Assembly: GCA_027490955.1 (NCBI GenBank)
Contig: JAIXXB010000013.1
Coordinates: forward strand, 1-64,000
Direction of reading: 5' to 3'
From: Rhodobacter sp.
GTDB lineage: Bacteria; Pseudomonadota; Alphaproteobacteria; Rhodobacterales; Rhodobacteraceae
Length of the DNA: 64,000 nt
In this document: positions 7,864 through 17,985 of the stretch, piece after piece
Layout of the letters: each line of letters starts with the position of its first letter
How positions within the stretch are numbered: position 1 is the stretch's first letter
Translations under genes and position numbers: made by a program
Notes under the pieces: model-generated
Seen by the model: only the letters and a program-made list of their open reading frames with translations
What the model was told of the DNA's origin: nothing
The model's database searches: none

Positions 7864-9261
7864 CTACTGCCACGGGCCAAAGCCAAAGCCTGTGTAATCT
7901 TTGTCATAGGCGGCGCGGGCGGCGGCATCTAAATCGGGGCCATAAATGCGCATGAGGCTGGGGTAGACAGGGTCTGGCGCATCAGGTGCGATCTGCGGCG
8001 CGGGCAGGCCCAAATCTGCGGCAATGCGCCCCAAATCACGGGGCAAATCCGCCTCGCGGATGATGGAATCGGGCAGGCCAATGGCGGCAAAGCCCTGCAG
8101 AATGGCCGTTTGGCTGGCAAATTGCGTCAGCACCTTTAGCCCCGTCTGCCCTGCCAAATTGCGTTTGAGAAAATTCAAAAAGGTCAGAAAGGCGCTGCGA
8201 AACGCATCGTCAGAGGCAAAGGACTCGCCCTGCGGGGGCAGGGGCAGATAGTGAAACTTGGCCAGATAGGGGCGCAATTCGGGCTGCAGCGGGCTAGAGA
8301 GGAACAGGCAAAACATCGCATGGGCGCGCGCCAGCGGATGGCGCAGCACCGTAAAACTGCGAAAGCCTGGTCGCGCCTCTTTCCATTTGCGCAGCGCTTT
8401 GCGATCAAAATCGCGGCTGACCGCGCCCGCAGATTTCAGCCACGCCGCCACCGAGCCCCAAGGCGCACCCGCCACAGGCATAAACAGCAAGGCGGGCGAA
8501 TCCAGCCCCACATACTGCAGCACGCCTGCATTGCGGCGCGGCTCGAAATTGGGGGTGCGGGTTAGGTTGAACCGATCCAGCCGCGCAAGGGCTGCGGCCA
8601 TCTCCTGAGGGTTGGTGACCTTGTCTTCCAATGCCTCGGGGTTTTGCTTTTTCAGCGTGGTGTCAATGTTGCGCAGCCGATCCTTCAGCCCCAAGAATGC
8701 CGCCACGCCATTGAGAACATCGACATTCAAGATGTCTTCATAATCCAGATAAAAGGCCGTCTGCCCCGATATTTGCAAACGATTAAGCAAGAGCAACTGA
8801 AAATCTTGGATGTTTTCCAAGTGCCGTTCAAATTGCGCAATGTCAAAGCTGGGCTGCATCGTGGTGTGGCGGCGGGTGTTCATCAGCCGCCACTGATCGG
8901 TTTCGCGCGCAATTTTCCAACTGATGAAACTTTCCACGGGGTTGCGCGTCAGAATGATCTTGGCGCAGGTCGGATCATCCAGCACCGCATCCAAAATGCG
9001 CGGGTCATGGTCGTGAAAATAGCGAAAGCCAGACAAGCCTTCGGTTTGCGCGCGCATCGCCGCAAGCAGGCCCAAAGGGTTTTCATCGCGCTGCGCGGCG
9101 GTAAATCCGCACAGCGTGTCATTGGTATGATTGCCCAAAAGATAGGGGTTAAACGCCTCGCCATAGCAGTGAAAGCCTGCCAGCCGATTGAGGTTCATTT
9201 CCAGAAAATTCGACCCCGTGCGCATTTCGCCAAAGATCACAAAACTGGTAAAGCGCGACAT
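7864..9261 (-). CDS. Tandem two-module sulfotransferase-like protein
   Basis: The 465-residue chain appears to hold two sulfotransferase folds. Residues 1-225 begin FVIFGEMRTGSNFLEMNL, like the 5'-phosphosulfate loop of Stf0-type enzymes, and carry a 3'-phosphate motif IILTRNPVESFIS at about 102-114. Residues 250-465 have VAGAPWGSVAAWL and a second 3'-phosphate-like motif, TVLRHPLARAHAMF, at about 304-317. No signal peptide is visible, so it should act in the cytoplasm using PAPS. It is 3 bases from the glycosyltransferase gene at 9265-10962 and so in its operon, which suggests a carbohydrate acceptor. The substrate is unknown and the second module's activity is inferred. NodH-like annotations are common for such proteins but not informative. 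Confidence 0.65.
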   Translation of the reverse strand: MSRFTSFVIFGEMRTGSNFLEMNLNRLAGFHCYGEAFNPYLLGNHTNDTLCGFTAAQRDENPLGLLAAMRAQTEGLSGFRYFHDHDPRILDAVLDDPTCAKIILTRNPVESFISWKIARETDQWRLMNTRRHTTMQPSFDIAQFERHLENIQDFQLLLLNRLQISGQTAFYLDYEDILNVDVLNGVAAFLGLKDRLRNIDTTLKKQNPEALEDKVTNPQEMAAALARLDRFNLTRTPNFEPRRNAGVLQYVGLDSPALLFMPVAGAPWGSVAAWLKSAGAVSRDFDRKALRKWKEARPGFRSFTVLRHPLARAHAMFCLFLSSPLQPELRPYLAKFHYLPLPPQGESFASDDAFRSAFLTFLNFLKRNLAGQTGLKVLTQFASQTAILQGFAAIGLPDSIIREADLPRDLGRIAADLGLPAPQIAPDAPDPVYPSLMRIYGPDLDAAARAAYDKDYTGFGFGPWQ

Positions 9262-9264
9262 GGG

Positions 9265-10962
9265 TCACTGCACCAAATAGGGGCGCACAGGGGGTTTTGC
9301 GCCTTTGTGGCCCTGCTCGGTCAGGGGGAAATCCCCCACCAAAGTGGGCTGCATGCCCTGATTGCGCAGCGCCTGCAAAAACTGGCCAAACCCTGTCAGA
9401 TCGGTCAAAATCGGGGCCTCGGTCAGCCGGCGCATCGCGCGGGGGCTGATTTCATCGACAATGGCTTGCAGCGGCTCGATCGGGTTTTCGACAAATTCCG
9501 CCAGATTCCACACCCGCACCCGCGCCTTAACCCATGGCAGGCGCAGCAGATTGGCAAAATCGGTTTCAATTTTCTGCAATCGCGCCGCCTCGCGGCGGAT
9601 ATCGGCAAAATCACGGTTGGATTTGAACAGGGCCAGCGCCCACCCCCCCGTGATCATAGAAATCTGCGCATTTGGATCGCGGGCCAAGAAATGCGTGATG
9701 GCTTGGTTATCGGCAGGGCCGAATTGAAAGCATTGCCTCTCGCCCCGCGTGTTCCACAAAAGATTGGTCAAAAAGTCCAGCGGGCGATAATCGCGCGATG
9801 CCGCAGAATCGGGCAGCCCGCCCATAAATGTGGTCTCGCCTTGGGCGAAATGCACGCGGTCTGGGGCGTAAAGATGGCCATGCACGCGCGCGCCTGTCGA
9901 TTTGACCAGCCATTTTTCCCAGTTTTCAAACACTTCGGAAAACCCTGCAAATACCGAATAGGGCGCGGCGGTGACGCCATTTTCCCAATCGTGGTTGGGA
10001 TGGCGGCTTTGCATATACAGGCCAGAGCGCCCCTTGGTGCGCCGCTCGACCGCCTTGGCAAACAGGCGGTCTATTTTGGCGGCATTCGGCTCTCCTCCCA
10101 AATCGGGGGCAGGTTGACCCGACAGGAAAGTGTCATACAGCTTATCGGCCTGCGACCAGATTTTGCGCGCCACAAAGCAATCGGATTTGCGCAACAGGGC
10201 AAGGTGATCGTCATAAAACACATGCGGCTTGCCCTGAAAATCAAACTTGGCCAGCGTCAGCGAACGGCTTTCGACATTGCCAGAGACCTGCCGCACCATG
10301 GTTTGAAAATAGCTTTCATCGGGAATCCAGACGCGGCGGAAATAGGCGTCAATGGCGGGGCGGTCGGGGTTTTGCAAAATCGCTGTTAGGGTTTGGCGTG
10401 TCAGGCACCACCATTGGCTGCCCAAATGCGGCACAATCCCCGCAGGAATGCGGCGGCGAAACCCGATACTGCGCTGCAATTTGACATAAAAATCAAAGGC
10501 CAAGCGCTGTTTGCGCCACGAGAAGGGAAAGCGCAGGGTAAAGCGTTCAATATCCAGCCCGCCCACTGTCCAACCCACATCGGCGGTGGTCACGCTTTCG
10601 ATGAAATTGGTTTGCGGGCGCGCATCCAGATAGGCGCGCAAATCCTCGACAGGGCGCAGCGGGATGCAAGAGCCTGATGCCAAAAACACATGGCGCACCT
10701 GCGCAAAATCGCGCAGCATGATGGTGGCGGCATCTTGGGTGGCGGCAACCAGCCCCCATGTGCCCCATTCGCAGGCAAAGCGCCGCGCAAAGCGAATATT
10801 GGGCAGGCCCGACAGCGCGCGCACCATCTCGTCGTAATTTCTGCGCTTGGTGCGCCGATCAACATGGATGACCACGGGGCAATCATGCTGGGCCCAATGG
10901 CGCGCCACCTGCACGGCGCGCGTCAGGTCATTGTGGCACAGCATGATAAAGCCCACGCTCAT
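9265..10962 (-). CDS. GT14-type (core-2/I-branching) glycosyltransferase with unknown C-terminal domain
   Basis: Residues 1-290 look like the GT14 family: MSVGFIMLCHNDLTRA, VVIHVDRRT, then FLASGSCIPLRP and GSQWWCLTR, as in beta-1,6-N-acetylglucosaminyl- and xylosyltransferases. About 275 further residues have no motif I recognise beyond a resemblance to Rhodobacterales-specific uncharacterised domains. The chosen start is ATG 10962, which overlaps the stop of the upstream GT2 gene as ATGA; a longer frame to 11040 would run into that gene. With the sulfotransferase 3 bases downstream, it forms a three-gene carbohydrate operon. Sugar donor and acceptor cannot be read from sequence. Confidence 0.7.
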   Translation of the reverse strand: MSVGFIMLCHNDLTRAVQVARHWAQHDCPVVIHVDRRTKRRNYDEMVRALSGLPNIRFARRFACEWGTWGLVAATQDAATIMLRDFAQVRHVFLASGSCIPLRPVEDLRAYLDARPQTNFIESVTTADVGWTVGGLDIERFTLRFPFSWRKQRLAFDFYVKLQRSIGFRRRIPAGIVPHLGSQWWCLTRQTLTAILQNPDRPAIDAYFRRVWIPDESYFQTMVRQVSGNVESRSLTLAKFDFQGKPHVFYDDHLALLRKSDCFVARKIWSQADKLYDTFLSGQPAPDLGGEPNAAKIDRLFAKAVERRTKGRSGLYMQSRHPNHDWENGVTAAPYSVFAGFSEVFENWEKWLVKSTGARVHGHLYAPDRVHFAQGETTFMGGLPDSAASRDYRPLDFLTNLLWNTRGERQCFQFGPADNQAITHFLARDPNAQISMITGGWALALFKSNRDFADIRREAARLQKIETDFANLLRLPWVKARVRVWNLAEFVENPIEPLQAIVDEISPRAMRRLTEAPILTDLTGFGQFLQALRNQGMQPTLVGDFPLTEQGHKGAKPPVRPYLVQ

Positions 10963-11969
10963 GCCCAATTTCCTTTTGACATCAGCCCCAGAATTTCCAG
11001 TTGCCGCCAGTTGATATAACGCTCGCTCCACTTGGTCCAAAGGTCGGGCTGGCTGGCGATGCCCGCGCGATAGGCGCGGTATTCGTGCGAATTGGCGTAA
11101 TGCTGGCGGCGATCCATTTCTTCTTCGGCCTTATCGACCAGCGTGTGAATGAACTTGGCATGCAGCAAGCATCCCGATGCCTTTTCCCCGCCCCATTCAT
11201 CATAGACAAGGTTCAGCCCGCGCGGCAGCAGCATATGGGTGGATGAAACATAGGCATAGGGCCGTTGCCATTTGACCAGTGGAATCTTGTTCAGCGCGGG
11301 GGCGCGTTCGGGCAAATCGGCAAAGAACATGCGCGCACGCGGGCCACCTTGGATCCACAGGTTGCCAAAGCGGCGGTTGCGTTCAATCACGTAATTGCCG
11401 CTGTCAAAATAGGGCGCATGGGCGATAGGGTCTTGCCCCTCGCGGTAGGGGATCAGATCAAAGGGGCCTTTGGGATACATATCCAGCAGCATGGCCGAGA
11501 AAGATTTGATCGAAGAGGCATCCAGCCAATCTGTCAGCGCGCGCAACGGGCGCGTGTCACAAAACGGATAGACGAAGAATTCGTCAGGATCGACTGTCAG
11601 GCACCAATGGTTATGGCCATAGCGCAAGAGCAGCCAATTGATCCAATCCATGCCAAAGCGGGCGCGCTTATAGCTGGCGGTGCTGTGCCAGAGCGAGACA
11701 TCGGGCTGGGCGGCCAGATATTCGCGCGTGCCATCGCTGCTGTCATTATCGACAATCAGAAAATGGTTCACACCCAAATCGCGGTAGTATTTCAGAAAAT
11801 AGGGCAGGCGGATGCGTTCGTTGCGCATGGTGGAAAACAGCAAAATAGCGCTGCGGCCAATCTGGGCGGTTTGGTCGGCAATAGGGCGCAGTTCACGCCG
11901 CTTGCGAAAGGCGCGCACCAGCCAGCGCCTGCGCGCAAGGCGTAACATATACCGCGTTGCCAATCTCAC
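10959..11969 (-). CDS. Glycosyltransferase family 2 protein
   Basis: The 336-residue protein begins with a basic, tRNA-synthetase-unlike leader (LRLARRRWLVRAFRKRR), then the GT-A core: LFSTMRNERIRLPYFL, FLIVDNDSSDGTREYL and a metal-binding LTVDPDEFFVYP. This arrangement fits the Glyco_tranf_2_4 type of GT2. The GTG start at 11969 is taken, but ATG 11948 is also possible. It is first in a three-gene minus-strand operon with the GT14-like protein and the sulfotransferase, coupled by a 4-base overlap. Product unknown. Confidence 0.75.
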   Translation of the reverse strand: MRLATRYMLRLARRRWLVRAFRKRRELRPIADQTAQIGRSAILLFSTMRNERIRLPYFLKYYRDLGVNHFLIVDNDSSDGTREYLAAQPDVSLWHSTASYKRARFGMDWINWLLLRYGHNHWCLTVDPDEFFVYPFCDTRPLRALTDWLDASSIKSFSAMLLDMYPKGPFDLIPYREGQDPIAHAPYFDSGNYVIERNRRFGNLWIQGGPRARMFFADLPERAPALNKIPLVKWQRPYAYVSSTHMLLPRGLNLVYDEWGGEKASGCLLHAKFIHTLVDKAEEEMDRRQHYANSHEYRAYRAGIASQPDLWTKWSERYINWRQLEILGLMSKGNWA

Positions 11970-12015: not shown

Positions 12016-13146
12016 TTACCCGATCTGCGTCAACACCACCTTAAAGTGATCTGCCCAAAGTGGTAGATTTTGTTTTTTGCGACCGCTTTGCTGATCTGCG
12101 GCCAAGATTTTGATTGTTTCCAACCAAGAATAACTGTCCCTTGGGTCAAGGTAAACTGGGAAGTCACCACAAACTTCGCGTAAAACGGGTAAATCTGAGG
12201 CGATGACTGCAGTGCCAAGGCCCGCCGCCTCTAGCGGGGGCAGGCCAAAGCCTTCGGCAAGGCTGGGAAACAGCAGCGCGCGCGCGCCTTGCAACAGGCT
12301 GGCCACTGCGCCATCGGACAGATTTTCGCCGTGCAGCACCGCGCCTTGCGCCTGCAACTGGGCCATTTGCGCAAACAGCGCCGCATCCGCCCAGCCTGCC
12401 GCGCCAATCACCACCAATTGCGGGGCGGGTGCGGGCAGGTTTGGCCAGATGTCAAACAGCAGCTTCAGGTTTTTGCGCGGCTCGATCGTGCCAAGGGCCA
12501 CGAAGTAGGGGCGGGTCGGGGTGATGGGGCTGGGCGCGGGGGCGGCCAGCGTCACCCCCAGCGGGGCCAGAATGGCGGGCGGAATGCGGCCTGCGGCAGC
12601 AAAATGCGCCTCGGTTTTGGCGCGGGCATCGGCGCTGATATGAATGACGCGGGCCGCAAACCGCGCCGTGGCGGCGATTTTTGCGGCAAAGGGCACATGC
12701 GTGCCCGCGCGGGCAAATTCGGGGTGATCCAGCGGGATGGTATCATGGATCAACACCACAGATGTCACCCCATAGCGCTGCATGGCGGCCAGCGTCGAGG
12801 CGCGCAGATTGCTGTGACCCACATTCAGATAGGCCGTGCCATGGGGCAGGCGGCGCAGTAGATGGCCCAGCATGAAATGGGGCCTACGCGCGATGGCATA
12901 AGGGCGGATGACAGCCAACAGATCTTTGGGAAAGATGGGCCTGCCAAGGCTGGCCTGCAATTGCGCGCATCCCTGCCGCCCCAGCAGAACAAGGCCCAAA
13001 GCTGTGCGGATCAGCCCAAAGATCGGGCTATCTTGCGCCAAAAGATGCGCAAGATAGGCCGCTTCTACCCGATCAATCCCCGTCATCTGGCCGCGCCCAC
13101 TGCGCGAGACCAGCCGCGTCAGATCCAGCAGAAAGCCCCCCGCCAC
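12016..13146 (-). CDS. Glycosyltransferase family 1/4 (GT4-like)
   Basis: This 376-residue GT-B enzyme has the second-domain motifs of retaining GT4 transferases: YFVALGTIEPRKNLKLL at the domain start and LFPSLAEGFGLPPLEA, the E-x7-E donor-binding motif. The N-terminal half shows GQMTGIDRVEAAYL and HDTIPLDHPEF, common in mannosyl- or rhamnosyltransferases of polysaccharide clusters. The start is GTG 13146, 12 bases after the galU stop, so the pair is probably cotranscribed from galU. The C-terminal 25 codons are rather AT-rich. Donor and acceptor are unknown. Confidence 0.78.
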   Translation of the reverse strand: MAGGFLLDLTRLVSRSGRGQMTGIDRVEAAYLAHLLAQDSPIFGLIRTALGLVLLGRQGCAQLQASLGRPIFPKDLLAVIRPYAIARRPHFMLGHLLRRLPHGTAYLNVGHSNLRASTLAAMQRYGVTSVVLIHDTIPLDHPEFARAGTHVPFAAKIAATARFAARVIHISADARAKTEAHFAAAGRIPPAILAPLGVTLAAPAPSPITPTRPYFVALGTIEPRKNLKLLFDIWPNLPAPAPQLVVIGAAGWADAALFAQMAQLQAQGAVLHGENLSDGAVASLLQGARALLFPSLAEGFGLPPLEAAGLGTAVIASDLPVLREVCGDFPVYLDPRDSYSWLETIKILAADQQSGRKKQNLPLWADHFKVVLTQIG

Positions 13147-13158
13147 CAGCCTAGGGGC

Positions 13159-14052
13159 CTATTGCGCGGCTTTTTGCAGGGCCATCATATCGTGCAAATA
13201 GGCCCCAAATTCTTCGCACAGATCAGGCCGCGACAGGCCAAAGGCCACAGTCGCCTGCAAAAACCCCGCCTTAGAACCGCAATCATAGCGCTGACCGCGA
13301 AAGCGATAGCCAAAGACTTTGCCCGAGGCAGCCTCTTCGGCGATGGCATCGGTCAGTTGAATTTCACCGCCCGCGCCCTGCTTCATCTTATTGAGATTGG
13401 TCATGATTTTTGGCGACAGAATATAGCGCCCGATCACCGCCAGATTCGATGGCGCTTCTTGGGGTTTTGGTTTTTCCACCATGCCCTTGGCGCGCACGAT
13501 CATGCCGTTGTCTTGGTCAATATCCAAAACGCCATAGGAGGACGTCCGATGCGGCGCAACTTCCATGGCCGCTACCATATTGCCGCCTGTTTCGGCATAG
13601 GCCTCGACCATCTGCTGCAAGCAGGGCTTTTCGGCGGCAATCACATCATCGGGCAAAAGCACGGCAAAGGGTTCATCCCCGACCAATTTGCGCGCGCACC
13701 ACACCGCATGGCCCAAGCCCATAGCACGGTTTTGCCGCACATAGGCAATCGCGCCAGAATCCATATTGGTGGATTTCAATATCTCTAACAGATCCGTCTT
13801 GCCCGCCCGTTTCAGCGCGGTTTCCAGTTCGGGCGAATGATCGAAATAATCCTCTAGCGCGGATTTGCCGCGCGAGGTGACAAAAATGAAATCTTTGATG
13901 CCAGCGGCCCGCGCCTCGTCGATGGCGTATTGGATCAAGGGGCGGTCAACCAAAGTCATAATCTCTTTGGGGATGGATTTGGTCGCAGGCAAAAACCGCG
14001 TTCCCATCCCAGCAACAGGAAACACTGCTTTGGTAACTTTTTTGATCTTCAT
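13159..14052 (-). CDS. galU: UTP-glucose-1-phosphate uridylyltransferase
   Basis: It makes UDP-glucose, the donor for surface polysaccharides and the precursor of UDP-galactose and UDP-glucuronate. The 297-residue nucleotidyltransferase shows GMGTRFLPATKSIPKEIM, the nucleotide-binding loop with the activating lysine, then LVDRPLIQYAIDEA, VLLPDDVI and GYRFRGQRYDCGSKAGFL. These are close to the family consensus and the length is typical. It heads a pair with the GT4 gene. The 135-base upstream gap (14053-14187) is AT-rich and probably holds its promoter, but no convincing -35/-10 pair was found. Confidence 0.92.
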   Translation of the reverse strand: MKIKKVTKAVFPVAGMGTRFLPATKSIPKEIMTLVDRPLIQYAIDEARAAGIKDFIFVTSRGKSALEDYFDHSPELETALKRAGKTDLLEILKSTNMDSGAIAYVRQNRAMGLGHAVWCARKLVGDEPFAVLLPDDVIAAEKPCLQQMVEAYAETGGNMVAAMEVAPHRTSSYGVLDIDQDNGMIVRAKGMVEKPKPQEAPSNLAVIGRYILSPKIMTNLNKMKQGAGGEIQLTDAIAEEAASGKVFGYRFRGQRYDCGSKAGFLQATVAFGLSRPDLCEEFGAYLHDMMALQKAAQ

Positions 14053-14187
14053 CTGCTCGAACCTTTGGATGTGCTGCGGCTGCAGGACAGCTCTTGTTTC
14101 AATTTATGGCATGGCTCTGGCCTATTGCATAGGTTTTTCAATCAAAAGATTAAAAATCGTCCAAGTTTGTCGCGCATGACGACCATA

Positions 14188-15405
14188 TCAACCGGTCAAG
14201 CCGCGATAGGGCGCGATGCGGGCGGTCTCTTTGGCTGCGCGGGCGGCAAAGCCGCGCCAGAACAGGGCGGATATATCGCGGTCACTGCGGCCCCAAATGC
14301 CGCCCTCTTGCCACCAATAGCCTTGGGGCAAAAACTGCATCTTATGCCGCCGCAGGCTGGGGGCAAGGCAGATCACAGTGACGATCTGGCCCTGCGCAAG
14401 GGCGGTGGCTGCGCGCCTGTGCAGCGCCTTTTGCGCCCAAACCCAGCCAAAGATCACCACAGATTGGCGCGGGCCTGCGCCGAGAAGGGGCAAAAATGGC
14501 GCGGCTGCACCAAATGTTTGCGCCGCGCCACAGGGGCGCGCCATGCCAGCCTGCCAGCCTGCATCAAGGCTTTCGCGCAGCGCCTGCGCCTGCACTGCGG
14601 TGACTTTGCCCGATGCGCGCAGGGATGCGATCCGCGCGGTCTGCGCCGCAAACATCCCCTCGCGCCCGAGTTCGGCATCAGGCCCTGCATGTTTGCGCAA
14701 AAACACCGCCGTGCTGGCCGCAATATCAAACAAGGTCACAGGAACGCGGTTGGCCTGCCTGCGCGCGCTGGCCAAAAACCCGTGATGCACCTGCGCATCT
14801 GGCACGATCATGGTGCGGCCCAAAGGGGCGATGCGCAGGTTTACATCTGCCTCATCCAGATAAAAGGCAAAGGCAGGGTCAAAGCCACCGATGGCGCGCA
14901 GGGCAGACAGGCGAAAGGCGCAATTTGTGCCTTGGGTTTTGACCGTTCGGGCGCGCGTGCCCTGATGCAGGCTGGGGGTTTGGGGCACATCTAGCGGGTG
15001 ATCTTGGCCCAAATGATCCACGGCGCAGGCCTGCCATTGGTAAGAAATGCCACTCCTCCCGCGCACAAAGCCCGTTGCCGCCACCACATCCGCGCTGTCA
15101 AAGGCCGCAATCAGCCGCGCGGCCCATGTCGGTTCGGGCACGGCATCATCATCGATAAACAGCGCCAGATCACCCGCCGCATGGGCAATGCCCAAATTGC
15201 GCGCCGCACTGATATTGGGCTGATCAAAGGGGATAATCTTCACATCCCCCTGCCCTGCCAGCCCCGCGCAGGCGGCAGGATCGGCGACCACGATCAGTTC
15301 GATGTCAGGCGCGCTTTGCTGGCGCAGGGCGCAGACAGCGCGCGCAAGGGCCGCGGCGCGGTGGCGCGATACAATGATGACCGAGGCGCGCAGCCCTTTG
15401 CTCAC
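14188..15405 (-). CDS. Glycosyltransferase family 2 protein with C-terminal extension
   Basis: Residues 1-250 are a GT-A/GT2 core: SVIIVSRHRAAALARAV, IELIVVADP, NISAARNLGIAHAAGDL and LFIDDDAVPEPTWAARL, with the DDD metal site. The last roughly 120 residues are arginine- and alanine-rich without a motif I recognise. The best start is GTG 15405, 8 bases after the kdsB stop and preceded by TGGGGCGG; the frame stays open to 15432. It is coupled to kdsB and cysQ in a minus-strand operon, which places it in envelope or LPS glycan synthesis. The sugar is unknown. Confidence 0.75.
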   Translation of the reverse strand: MSKGLRASVIIVSRHRAAALARAVCALRQQSAPDIELIVVADPAACAGLAGQGDVKIIPFDQPNISAARNLGIAHAAGDLALFIDDDAVPEPTWAARLIAAFDSADVVAATGFVRGRSGISYQWQACAVDHLGQDHPLDVPQTPSLHQGTRARTVKTQGTNCAFRLSALRAIGGFDPAFAFYLDEADVNLRIAPLGRTMIVPDAQVHHGFLASARRQANRVPVTLFDIAASTAVFLRKHAGPDAELGREGMFAAQTARIASLRASGKVTAVQAQALRESLDAGWQAGMARPCGAAQTFGAAAPFLPLLGAGPRQSVVIFGWVWAQKALHRRAATALAQGQIVTVICLAPSLRRHKMQFLPQGYWWQEGGIWGRSDRDISALFWRGFAARAAKETARIAPYRGLTG

Positions 15406-15415
15406 GGCCGCCCCA

Positions 15416-16216
15416 TCAGGCCAGCCCCGCATTATGGGCGATCATCGCTTCGACAATGGGGATGTCTTCGGGGTTATTCACCTCCCAAAACTGATGCGCG
15501 CGGGCTTGGACCTGCACACAATGCACCCGCCGCCCCTGTTCCAAAAAGCGCAGTTGTTCCAAGCCTTCGCGCGCCTCTAGCGGGCCTATGGGCCAGCGCG
15601 GGTAATCGCGCAGCGCCCCCGCGCGATAGGCGTAAAGGCCCACGTGATGAAACACAGGGGTCGGGTCGGCAGGCGCGAAGTTTTGCGCACAAAAGGGGAT
15701 CACCTCTTTGGAAAAATACAGCGCCGCGCCATCTGCGGCAAAAACAGCCGTTGTGCCGCCCACACGCCCTGCTGCGCGGTCGGCGATTAGGGCGGCGCGC
15801 ATCGCGCCATCGCAGCACAGCACGGGGGTGGCAACATCGCAGCCGCCCTGCGCCATGGCCGCAACCAAATCAAGGGTAAACCATGGCGGGGTCAGCGGCG
15901 CATCGCCCTGCAAATTGACGATCACATCAAAATCGCCCATCGCCGCCGCCACTTCGGCGCAGCGTTCGGTGCCGTTTTGCGCCTGCGCGCTGGTCATCAC
16001 CACCGCGCCGCCAAAGCCCTGCACATGGGCGGCAATGCGCGCATCATCCGTGGCCACGACCACCTGCGCGCCAATCATCTGCCCTGCGGCCATTCCCGCC
16101 GCCCATGCGCGCTGCACAAGGGTCTTGGCCCCATCTGGCCCTGTAATCTGCGCCAGAGGTTTGGCGGGAAAGCGCGATGAAGCATAGCGCGCGGGAATGA
16201 CAATAAGGGTTTTCAT
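15416..16216 (-). CDS. kdsB: 3-deoxy-manno-octulosonate cytidylyltransferase
   Basis: It activates Kdo as CMP-Kdo for transfer to lipid A. The 266-residue enzyme begins MKTLIVIPARYASSRFPAKPLA, the cytidylyltransferase N-terminal loop, with VNLQGDAPL and the HVGLYAYR motif later. The length is slightly above the roughly 250 of E. coli KdsB. It lies 3 bases from the cysQ stop and 10 bases from the following GT2 start. kdsD for the same pathway is about 11 kb away on the other strand. Confidence 0.9.
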   Translation of the reverse strand: MKTLIVIPARYASSRFPAKPLAQITGPDGAKTLVQRAWAAGMAAGQMIGAQVVVATDDARIAAHVQGFGGAVVMTSAQAQNGTERCAEVAAAMGDFDVIVNLQGDAPLTPPWFTLDLVAAMAQGGCDVATPVLCCDGAMRAALIADRAAGRVGGTTAVFAADGAALYFSKEVIPFCAQNFAPADPTPVFHHVGLYAYRAGALRDYPRWPIGPLEAREGLEQLRFLEQGRRVHCVQVQARAHQFWEVNNPEDIPIVEAMIAHNAGLA

Positions 16217-16219
16217 GTG

Positions 16220-17017
16220 TTAGCGTTTCAACTCCACACCCGGGGCATAGGCAATGAAGAAAGGGTTGTCCCATCCTGCCTTGCCATAGATCAGCGGATC
16301 ATGGCTGTGAAAATCCACCATCACCCCCCCTGCCCCGCGCAGCACCGCATCGCCCGCCGCCGTATCCCATTCCATCGTGCGCCCAAGGCGGGGATACAGA
16401 TCAGCCTCGCCCGTGGCGATCAGGCACAGTTTCAGCGAACTGCCAGCCGAGGTCATATCGCGCACAGCATATTTGGCGATATAGTCATCGGTCGCAGCGT
16501 CGCGGTGCGATTTAGAGGCCACGACCATCAGGGCAGAATTGTCGGGCGCAGGGTTTACCGCAATGGGCTGCATTGGCCCCACGTGATCCAGATCATGCGC
16601 GCCCATCTCTTCAACCGAAGCCCCCTGCGCCGTGGTGTAAAACAGCCGCCCCTTGGCAGGGGCATAGACCACGCCGCGCACAGGCACGCCGTTTTCGACA
16701 TAGGCGATATTCACAGTAAAATCGCCGCGCCGTTGGATAAACTCTTTGGTGCCATCCAAAGGATCGACAATCAAAAACGTGGCCGCGCGCTGGGCATGGC
16801 TTTCGGCATCTTCCTCGGTGATCAGGGGCACGGCGGGAAAGGCTGCGCGCAGACCTGCGGCAATAATCGCATTCGCGGCCTCGTCTGCCTCGGTCACAGG
16901 GCTGGCATCGGATTTGATTTTCACATCAAAATCGGGGCCGTCATAGACCTGCATGATCTTTGCCCCCGCCAGCAGCGCCAGCCTGCGCATCACCGCCTGC
17001 AACTGCCCATAGTCCAT
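16220..17017 (-). CDS. cysQ: 3'(2'),5'-bisphosphate nucleotidase CysQ
   Basis: It hydrolyses 3'-phosphoadenosine 5'-phosphate, the by-product of PAPS use in sulfate assimilation and in sulfotransferase reactions. The IMPase-fold motifs are present: EEDAESH for metal binding, DPLDGTKEF and the late EWDTAAGDAVL. Start ATG 17017 (MDYGQLQ) is preceded by GGGGGCG and gives 265 residues, close to the family; the frame extends to 17050. It begins the kdsB-containing operon. Because the neighbourhood contains sulfotransferases, it may serve to clear PAP from glycan sulfation; this is inference. Confidence 0.88.
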   Translation of the reverse strand: MDYGQLQAVMRRLALLAGAKIMQVYDGPDFDVKIKSDASPVTEADEAANAIIAAGLRAAFPAVPLITEEDAESHAQRAATFLIVDPLDGTKEFIQRRGDFTVNIAYVENGVPVRGVVYAPAKGRLFYTTAQGASVEEMGAHDLDHVGPMQPIAVNPAPDNSALMVVASKSHRDAATDDYIAKYAVRDMTSAGSSLKLCLIATGEADLYPRLGRTMEWDTAAGDAVLRGAGGVMVDFHSHDPLIYGKAGWDNPFFIAYAPGVELKR

Positions 17018-17061
17018 TTTCGCCCCCAAACTGGCCGCGCTGCCACACAAACGCCGCCTTG

Positions 17062-17163: not shown

Positions 17164-17985
17164 ATGTTTCGCGTCCACACAAGCACTTCAGGATGGGCTA
17201 TCACTTGGCGGCTGCTGGAACTGATCTTCCACGCCTCGGTGCGCCATATCCGCAAAAGCCACGGCAACGCGCTGGTTGGCCTTTTGATGGCGATTTTGCA
17301 ATCGGTCATCATGGTGGCCGTCATGGTCTTTATGATGGATTTGCTGGGCATGCGCCGCATGGCCGTGCGCGGCGATTTTGTGCTGTATATGATGACGGGC
17401 GTGTTCAACTTTGCCACCTATACCCAAACCTTGGGCGCCGTGGCAAAATCTGATGGCCCCACATCAGCGATGATGAAACATTCGCCCATGAACCCCATTG
17501 TCGCCATTGGGGCAGCGGCGCTGGGCACACTGTATTTGCAAGTGCTGTCTGCCGCCACAATCTTGTTCTTTTACCACACGCTGTGGACACCCATCACAAT
17601 CCACGAGCCGCAATATGTTTTTGGGGCCTTCATGCTGTCATGGTTTTCGGGCATCGCCACGGGCATGATCTTTAAGGCCGCAACCCCGTGGCAGCCCGAA
17701 TTGGTGGGCACGCTGACCTCGATCTATTCGCGCATGAATATGATCTTTTCGGGCAAGATGATGCTGGCCAATTCCACACCGGGCTACATTCTGGCGATGT
17801 ATTCGTGGAACCCCTTGTTCCACACCATCGATCAGACCCGCGGCTATATGTTTGAAAACTATCACCCGCATTATTCGTCCATCACCTATCCGATCTATGT
17901 CTCGCTGGCGCTGATGATGATCGGCCTGATGGGCGAGCATTATTCAAACCGCTACATCTCGCTGAGCTGGAGCGCGAAGCGATAG
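17164..17985 (+). CDS. Capsule-type polysaccharide ABC-2 transporter permease
   Basis: The 273-residue membrane protein resembles KpsM/Wzm permeases that move lipid-linked polysaccharide across the inner membrane. A cytoplasmic amphipathic start is followed by about six hydrophobic helices, including [21 protein letters not shown] and the late [19 protein letters not shown]. Conserved ABC-2 loop features such as [21 protein letters not shown] sit before the last helix. No KpsT/Wzt ATPase is adjacent; the next gene is dnaK. The partner must be elsewhere. The start ATG 17164 lacks a strong Shine-Dalgarno but is preceded by AGAGGCAAGG. Confidence 0.78.

Follow-up and report, generated by a model that had tools for sequence, protein, structure and literature searches.

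A glycosyltransferase and sulfotransferase trio near-universal in the Rhodobacteraceae, and its probable place in a Kps/Vex-type surface polysaccharide pathway

The trio and its operon

We analysed a stretch of 64,000 nucleotides of Rhodobacter sp. DNA (contig JAIXXB010000013.1, positions 1 to 64,000; hereafter the window) from a genome of 2.96 Mb in 42 contigs, and focused on three adjacent minus-strand genes transcribed in the order GT2, GT14-DUF5927 and Stf, which encode two glycosyltransferases and a two-module sulfotransferase (Table 1). GT2 and GT14 overlap by 4 bases, and 3 bases separate GT14 from Stf. We sampled the locus in 80 relatives, the best of at least 597 (the named loci), to which all junction counts refer: of 79 measurable GT2–GT14 junctions, 63 are at −4 bases, and all 76 measurable GT14–Stf spacings fall within 0–19 bases. 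The trio is thus one operon, as a preliminary description of this DNA had proposed, and forms the tail of a longer one. The closest of these 80 relatives at the locus is a Rhodobacter sp. metagenome bin, 92% identical over GT14. One of the 76 spacing cases, locus L131 (2712–3263), has a Stf frame of just 183 residues behind an intact GT14, which points to a truncated gene or an assembly error. For the window GT14, an ATG start at 10962, giving 565 residues, is most likely; the list of open reading frames holds a longer frame from a TTG at 11040. Promoter and terminator scans returned numbers near the shuffled expectation (5 versus 4.2 and 20 versus 15.0, respectively).

Table 1. Genes, domains and motifs of the trio and its neighbourhood (window positions)
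Feature	Position	Strand	Evidence
Two-module sulfotransferase (Stf), 465 residues	7864..9261	-	AlphaFold model; fold and profile matches
Stf C-module, residues 251-465, putatively degenerate sulfotransferase-like	7867..8511	-	Motif counts
Stf N-module, residues 3-239, probably catalytic PAPS module	8545..9255	-	Invariant motifs and fold
Putative 3'-phosphate site R106...S114 of Stf	8920..8946	-	79/79; R106 after strand 99-105, S114 in helix 108-121
Putative 5'-phosphosulfate loop MRTGSN, Stf residues 13-18	9208..9225	-	79/79; between strand 6-10 and helix 17-24 (model)
GT14-DUF5927 fusion, 565 residues	9265..10962	-	PF02485 and PF19349
DUF5927 domain, perhaps degenerate sulfotransferase-like	9268..10167	-	hhalign to Stf N-module 30.1
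GT14 (Branch) catalytic domain, residues 1-287	10102..10962	-	C2GnT-L 3otk Z 25.1
GT2-type glycosyltransferase (Glyco_tranf_2_4), 336 residues	10959..11969	-	PF13704 1.8e-36
GT4 glycosyltransferase, variable (second GT2 at same place in many genomes)	12016..13146	-	PF00534 8e-20
galU, UDP-glucose supply	13159..14052	-	TIGR01099 345 bits vs cut-off 326.8
Second GT2-family glycosyltransferase (GT2b), variable	14188..15432	-	PF00535 1.6e-17
kdsB, CMP-Kdo synthetase	15416..16216	-	NF003950 305 bits vs cut-off 234
cysQ, PAP phosphatase, operon head	16220..17050	-	TIGR01331 262 bits vs cut-off 228.8
KpsM/VexB-like ABC-2 export permease, divergent from cysQ	17164..17985	+	NCBIfam VexB/KpsM matches
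ABC, ATP-binding cassette; CMP, cytidine monophosphate; Kdo, 3-deoxy-D-manno-octulosonic acid; PAP, 3'-phosphoadenosine 5'-phosphate; PAPS, 3'-phosphoadenosine 5'-phosphosulfate; UDP, uridine diphosphate.

The trio is found across the family with a frequency far beyond chance. In 196 genomes drawn from the order, all labelled as belonging to the family of the window and representing 88 genera, DUF5927 was detected at E ≤ 0.001 in 189 (one a remnant), Stf in 187 and GT2 in 190, in line with the earlier expectation that the three genes are conserved together. A phylum-wide draw placed DUF5927 in 14 of 249 genomes, all 14 from this family, with no match outside it. All three genes are missing from six genomes of the family sample (G085, G094, G110, G141, G156 and G174); in addition, neither DUF5927 nor Stf is present in G060, where GT2 gives only a weak match (7.7e-14), and G075 has weak DUF5927 (1e-8) and GT2 (1.6e-8) matches and no Stf. 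We refer to these eight (seven with no match, one with the remnant) as genomes without GT14; the remaining 188 carry DUF5927 at E ≤ 4.7e-59. The 188 include G117, in whose assembly the GT14 frame is disrupted (174 residues at most in any one piece of the matching frame); at its locus, L075, several stops interrupt the frame between 9440 and 10640, and the flanking Stf and GT2 frames are intact. Stf is the sole trio gene missing from G059 and is likewise lost beside an intact GT14 in loci L082, L087 and L092; in G059, L087 and L092 ptsN comes within a few bases. Such losses of Stf by itself fit a late modification, which would be expected to behave in this way. The source genome also encodes a second Branch-domain (GT14) protein, in a 528-residue frame (G000:C2:58175-58885, locus L001); the genome's sole DUF5927 match is that in the window. 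A search of a viral collection, bearing on a phage origin, yielded one partial match (52 residues, 38%).

To map the wider operon, we ran the window proteins by tblastn against the 80 named loci and against a set of 20 taken from diverse genomes. Most loci share a block kdsD-lptC-lptA-lptB-hpf-ptsN, in which kdsD and lptA are named by domain or position only, facing the run cysQ-kdsB-(GT2b)-galU-(GT4 or second GT2)-GT2-GT14-Stf, followed by a divergent gene for a 273-residue membrane protein and dnaK. Of the 20 diverse loci, 17 have ptsN; cysQ is found in 19, as is the membrane protein. Upstream DNA extends for 9.5 kb or more in 62 named loci; all 62 have cysQ, 61 the membrane protein, 60 galU, 50 kdsB, 33 GT2b and 32 GT4. 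Downstream, Stf occurs in 76 of 79 named loci (at least 1.5 kb of DNA) and ptsN in 69 of 78 (at least 2.5 kb). By these counts cysQ, galU, GT2 and GT14 make up the fixed part of the operon, Stf nearly as much, and the other glycosyltransferases vary.

Within the variable part, GT4 with GT2b on the one hand (window positions 12016–15432) and a second GT2 on the other resemble alternative cassettes, a hint at two outer glycan structures. In loci L067 (G046), L090, L094, L099 and L103 the operon has no kdsB, and kdsD is not where it normally stands. We considered and rejected a loss of Kdo where the operon lacks kdsB: the gene lies elsewhere in all five genomes, in G046 near a kdsD-like gene. Near core genes, at 192–2744, the window also encodes an 850-residue protein that matches the C-terminal specificity domain of type ISP restriction enzymes (PF18135, 5.8e-69).

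Predicted folds of the glycosyltransferase and sulfotransferase

Pfam divides the GT14 protein into a Branch domain (PF02485, 3.1e-18; 66.7 bits versus a curated cut-off of 23.4) and the C-terminal DUF5927 (PF19349, 7.7e-146). Its model has a mean predicted local distance difference test score (pLDDT) of 71.5, and structural alignment matches residues 1–287 to the core-2 enzyme C2GnT-L (3otk) over 268 residues with a root-mean-square deviation of 2.9; residues 1–286 match xylosyltransferase 1 (XYLT1, 6eja) at Z 23.0, and the best entry outside GT14 reaches Z 15.4. All 80 sequences compared have D215 and E216, and we take E216 to be the equivalent of the acidic catalytic residue of C2GnT-L. The predicted catalytic domain thus has the GT14 fold, of GT-A type. 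This fold fixes neither the sugar nor the formation of a branch. The GT2 protein alone has no match in the PDB at E ≤ 1.

XYLT1 ranks first for the GT14 domain both by Foldseek and by sequence profile, as might be expected if the trio attached glycans to a protein, much as animals do in making proteoglycans. The sugar-acting C2GnT-L nevertheless aligns better (Z 25.1 versus 23.0), and the co-inherited genes that were tested, described below, are capsule genes, protein-glycosylation genes having lain outside the search; with C2GnT-L as the better structural match we set proteoglycan-like protein glycosylation aside as unneeded, and consider it very improbable.

The window Stf has no Pfam match; among 60 homologues scanned at E ≤ 1, Sulfotransfer_2 was found in 38, Sulfotransfer_3 in 35 and Sulfotransfer_1 in 24. 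Its AlphaFold model (mean pLDDT 88.6) aligns over residues 2–233 with Stf0 (1tex, Z 13.6), and further matches include heparan 3-O-sulfotransferases (6xkg, Z 12.9) and NST1 (1nst, Z 12.4); the best Foldseek E value is 1.0e-4, and all 50 VIA rows shown fall inside residues 1–241. A 60-sequence Stf profile matches PDB chain 9vki, named as the lipopolysaccharide (LPS) sulfotransferase NodH, at 8.3e-12. MRTGSN, E35, R106 and S114 of the N-module are invariant in 79 of 79 sequences; a strand-loop-helix placement is expected for a PAPS site, and the modelled positions are given in Table 1. The N-module is therefore probably catalytic.

The C-module, which scores 31.4 against the N-module in hhalign, retains an R-H-P strand end (R307 in 73 of 79 sequences, H308 and P309 in all 79) and departs from the PAPS signatures: serine occurs at 315 in just 4 of 79, and the loop is mostly P-x-[RK]-[GS]-G-P, the usual PAPS loop motif being P-K-x-G-G-[TS]. 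Position 264 in this loop is K or R in 65 of 79 sequences; the window Stf has A there. Judged by these motifs, its PAPS site appears degenerate.

DUF5927 may be a third such fold. Its profile scores 30.1 against the Stf N-module (hhalign, P = 0.0016; HH probability just 16%), above all 60 column shuffles (maximum 24.6), the reversed controls (20.8 and 20.4) and 12 unrelated neighbourhood profiles (maximum 17.1). Against the Stf C-module, however, DUF5927 scores only 18.2, and one unrelated control profile gives 22.3 with the Stf N-module, so the margin of DUF5927 is moderate. By eye, the order of strands and helices in the DUF5927 and Stf models is alike over about 10 elements, with Stf strand 42–44 unmatched and pLDDT low in places. 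The PAPS signatures are not kept: in our alignment the corresponding loop reads mostly GF[SAT][ED]LF, and the 3' site has S or T with F. We propose with moderate confidence that DUF5927 is a degenerate sulfotransferase-like domain. An hhalign match of DUF5927 to the GT14 domain (49.5) was discarded as an artefact of a 21-residue overlap between the slices. The lack of fold-search rows for DUF5927 and the Stf C-module is uninformative, because a single domain fills each list (VIA, Foldseek).

These results bear unevenly on the preliminary description. Its GT14 fold and its genuine sulfotransferase fold both stand, whereas a 'branched' and 'proteoglycan-type' glycan finds no support beyond the GT14 fold itself. 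Of the two sulfotransferase signatures it had noted in Stf, the general pattern is present in both modules; the PAPS signature, and with it a PAPS-binding geometry in the predicted structure, is kept in the first module and degenerate in the second.

Co-occurrence with capsule export genes

The permease divergent from cysQ has a weak ABC-2 permease match in Pfam, and among NCBIfam models it scores best with VexB, from the Vi capsule (NF011723, 2.1e-14), and KpsM (NF050053, 2.3e-8), both under the curated cut-offs. A close relative (E ≤ 6.0e-64) is found in 188 of 188 genomes with GT14 and in none of the eight without: the permease is missing from G060, G075, G085, G156 and G174, and G094, G110 and G141 have a distant match only (1e-5 to 1e-8). 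KpsC/KpsS (PF05159) follows the same division at E ≤ 2.4e-42, with 188 of 188 genomes versus two of the eight; it is absent from G085, G094 and G156, weak in G060, G075 and G174, and best-scoring of all genomes in G110 and G141. All 16 GT14 genomes tested have a KpsT/VexC-like ATPase at E ≤ 2.5e-27 (range 1e-27 to 1e-33); none of the other eight does, their matches being worse (best 2.5e-22, in G141) or missing. Fisher tests of the co-occurrence of permease, KpsC/KpsS and ATPase with GT14, which ignore shared ancestry, give p = 2e-14, 4e-10 and 1e-6, respectively.

Because their scores top those of all genomes, the KpsC/KpsS proteins of G110 and G141 are probably of another kind. In G141 a strong KpsC/KpsS set lies beside the distant permease and a VexC-like ATPase (G141:C1, 2138553–2142503), and in G110 such a set lies on contig C31 (locus L199) with the distant permease about 13 kb off; neither genome has the trio. 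It is as if a different capsule stood in for that of the trio in these two genomes.

The same pattern could arise by shared ancestry, if core genes had been lost jointly in a few reduced or odd lineages with no functional link between them; GT14 is missing from eight genomes only, and G110 and G141, with another kps-type set, may never have had that of the trio. Yet G060 and G075 lack GT14, Stf, the permease, strong KpsC/KpsS and the VexC-like ATPase, while kdsB, adenosine 5'-phosphosulfate (APS) kinase and WaaA remain. As genus-mates of both keep the full set, at least two of the joint losses look independent, and we regard ancestry by itself as a very poor bet.

The source genome holds the rest of an export pathway at other sites: KpsS-KpsD-KpsC lie together on contig C26 (L194) and KpsT-KpsE-kdsA on contig C17 (L205), the same two groups being carried by G002. 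A motif scan of eight permease loci showed no ATPase next to the permease, and in L176 an LptB-like match (31%) lies about 5.6 kb away; the ATPase candidate was found at the KpsE-kdsA site instead. With homologues of KpsM, KpsT, KpsE, KpsD, KpsC and KpsS all present, the Kps pathway appears complete at the level of sequence homology, spread over three sites. The adjacent permease and the dispersed Kps genes, neither of which figures in the preliminary description, together suggest where the glycan is destined.

The main rival to a capsule is that the trio builds and sulfates the outer core of LPS. LpsS sulfates LPS in Sinorhizobium, and synteny with the kdsD-lptC-lptA-lptB block and with kdsB would then reflect an LPS role; the best PDB sequence match of Stf is to the named LPS sulfotransferase NodH (9vki), a likeness of sequence only. 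A review describes the LPS carbohydrate backbone of the family member Loktanella rosea as unique and highly negatively charged (PMC3210612), which we count in favour of this rival. The pattern of joint loss speaks against it. All 22 genomes tested have kdsB somewhere, and a member of the WaaA family occurs in 21 of 22, among them seven of the eight without GT14; lptB is still in a block with ptsN in G085, G094 and G174; and it is the Kps machinery that vanishes along with the trio. We judge a role in the LPS core unlikely, with perhaps a fifth of the weight.

A proposed pathway and its relation to known systems

We consider it fairly probable that the trio forms the unchanging end, responsible for assembly and sulfation, of a surface polysaccharide pathway that depends on an ABC transporter of the Kps/Vex type and is near-universal in the family. 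Permease, KpsC/KpsS and KpsT-like genes follow GT14 across genomes, the operon carries kdsB and galU, the PAPS site of the Stf N-module looks intact and CysQ heads the operon; these observations are best explained by a sulfated surface polysaccharide that is primed with Kdo, exported by an ABC transporter and fixed throughout the family. In such a pathway, KdsA, KdsD and KdsB would supply CMP-Kdo, from which KpsC and KpsS would put a β-Kdo linker onto lipid; GalU would provide UDP-glucose, and the variable GT2b and GT4 or second GT2, together with the fixed GT2 and GT14, would lengthen the glycan. The Stf N-module would move sulfate from PAPS onto the glycan, CysQ would clear the by-product PAP, and KpsM, KpsT, KpsE and KpsD would carry out export. 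The Stf C-module and DUF5927, as putatively degenerate sulfotransferase-like folds, may bind the acceptor or a partner.

Several observations weigh against this interpretation. The co-occurrence statistics ignore phylogeny and set 188 genomes against just eight, and the VexC model matches all 14 control genomes too, so that only the size of the ATPase score counts. None of the Kps components of the window's genome reaches its NCBIfam equivalog cut-off, and the name KpsC comes from PF05159 only. Capsule genes form one cluster as a rule, and here they occupy three sites (contigs C31, C26 and C17), unlike a one-cluster Kps/Vex capsule; the permease is apart from the trio in G123, G004 and G183, and the stretch of locus L148 has no permease. 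G117 keeps Stf, GT2, the permease and KpsC/KpsS despite its broken GT14 frame, which means that the link between GT14 and the Kps genes is not absolute. APS kinase is present in 20 of 20 genomes tested, all eight without GT14 included, and cysQ is still beside kdsB in G094, G110, G141, G156, G174 and G075, all without an intact trio (this arrangement was not seen in the stretches read of G085 and G060). The persistence of kdsB, WaaA, APS kinase and cysQ without the trio indicates that Kdo, PAPS and the removal of PAP have other uses too. The presence of cysQ some 5 kb from the trio had initially been taken to support sulfation; the gene does head the same gene run, but its retention in six genomes that lack an intact trio makes it weak evidence, and as proof of sulfation we reject it.

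A variant of the polysaccharide pathway, rather than its opposite, is that the product of the trio is short, a sulfated glycolipid or oligosaccharide rather than a chain of capsule length, and simply leaves by way of the Kps/Vex exporter. Typical capsule loci are variable, and the trio is fixed in most of the 88 genera; the operon also holds few glycosyltransferases, and exporter parts are present. GT4 and GT2b, however, differ between genomes, as they would in capsules, and we give the short glycan roughly one chance in eight. A more specific form of the full polysaccharide reading is attractive but tentative, and we would lean against it if pressed: that one fixed, sulfated, Kdo-anchored family glycan replaces a variable capsule, and that a GT14 fused to a dead sulfotransferase fold pairs with the two-module Stf, so that two neighbouring proteins would hold three sulfotransferase folds, one of them catalytic.

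Capsule loci are usually strain-variable; when a set of glycan genes occurs in about 95% of the family genomes sampled, this points to a structure that is hard to change. Few bacteria are commoner in the sea than roseobacters and their relatives, and a sulfated polymer on their surface would touch on the attachment of phages and gene transfer agents, on biofilms and on marine sulfur chemistry. Our analysis offers a candidate fold for DUF5927 and a testable gene list comprising the trio, cysQ, the permease, KpsC/S/D and KpsT/E.

The view that the trio has no characterised product holds within the literature that we searched, mostly outside subscription papers: we found no paper on DUF5927, no Rhodobacter paper on an i-branching glycosyltransferase, none on mutants in a sulfotransferase or glycosyltransferase for a sulfated polysaccharide, and no description of the system. 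The sole printed trace of the GT14 gene that we found is one line of a table (PMC8319176, Table 2), in which SPO0035 of Ruegeria pomeroyi, a 'Core-2 I-branching enzyme family protein', is common to all producers of a sulfur aminolipid (SAL) and absent from Sagittula stellulata and Dinoroseobacter shibae; going by its printed name only, SPO0035 would be the GT14 of the trio. Its absence from D. shibae and S. stellulata is perhaps a shared pattern of loss. SAL itself was rejected as the product of the trio, the lipid being traced to salA and no test of SPO0035 being reported in the available part of that paper (PMC8319176). A figure legend of a roseobacter study names KpsC and KpsT (PMC10090131), and the available text of PMC11625862 makes no mention of alphaproteobacteria or Rhodobacter.

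Among described surface polysaccharides of the same family, the capsule of Rhodobacter capsulatus is the receptor of its gene transfer agent (RcGTA) and is assigned to rcc01081–01086, which are absent from another strain of the species, with export by wza/wzb/wzc (PMC10218006). On this description, with its different export genes and its absence from a strain, we set it aside as the product of the trio. At the level of single proteins, the GT14 domain shares the GT-A fold of C2GnT-L and xylosyltransferase 1 and differs from them in its low identity (15–19%) and its fusion to DUF5927; we know of no animal GT14 enzyme with DUF5927. Stf resembles bacterial sulfotransferases of the Stf0/NodH type in its N-module fold (1tex) and profile match (9vki), and departs from them in its second, putatively degenerate module and in the want of a Pfam match for the window Stf alone.

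As whole systems, two sulfated capsules come closer. Vibrio sp. KMM 8419 has an ABC-exported sulfated capsule with kps genes and sulfotransferases and, unlike the system described here, has no kpsC; the term 'i-branching' is absent from the main text (PMC11641403). The nearest described system that we found is the sulfated capsular polysaccharide of Cobetia marina KMM 1449, of solved structure, for which the available text places kpsETMD, kpsSC, PAPS genes with cysQ and a sulfotransferase in one large cluster (PMC11766843). As its authors predicted from the genome of that strain, Kps-type ABC export, KpsS/KpsC priming, a sulfotransferase and CysQ would act in a single pathway, as we propose for the trio; that text names no GT14 for Cobetia, whereas the system described here is spread over three sites, its trio is family-wide, and it combines a GT14-DUF5927 fusion with a two-module Stf.

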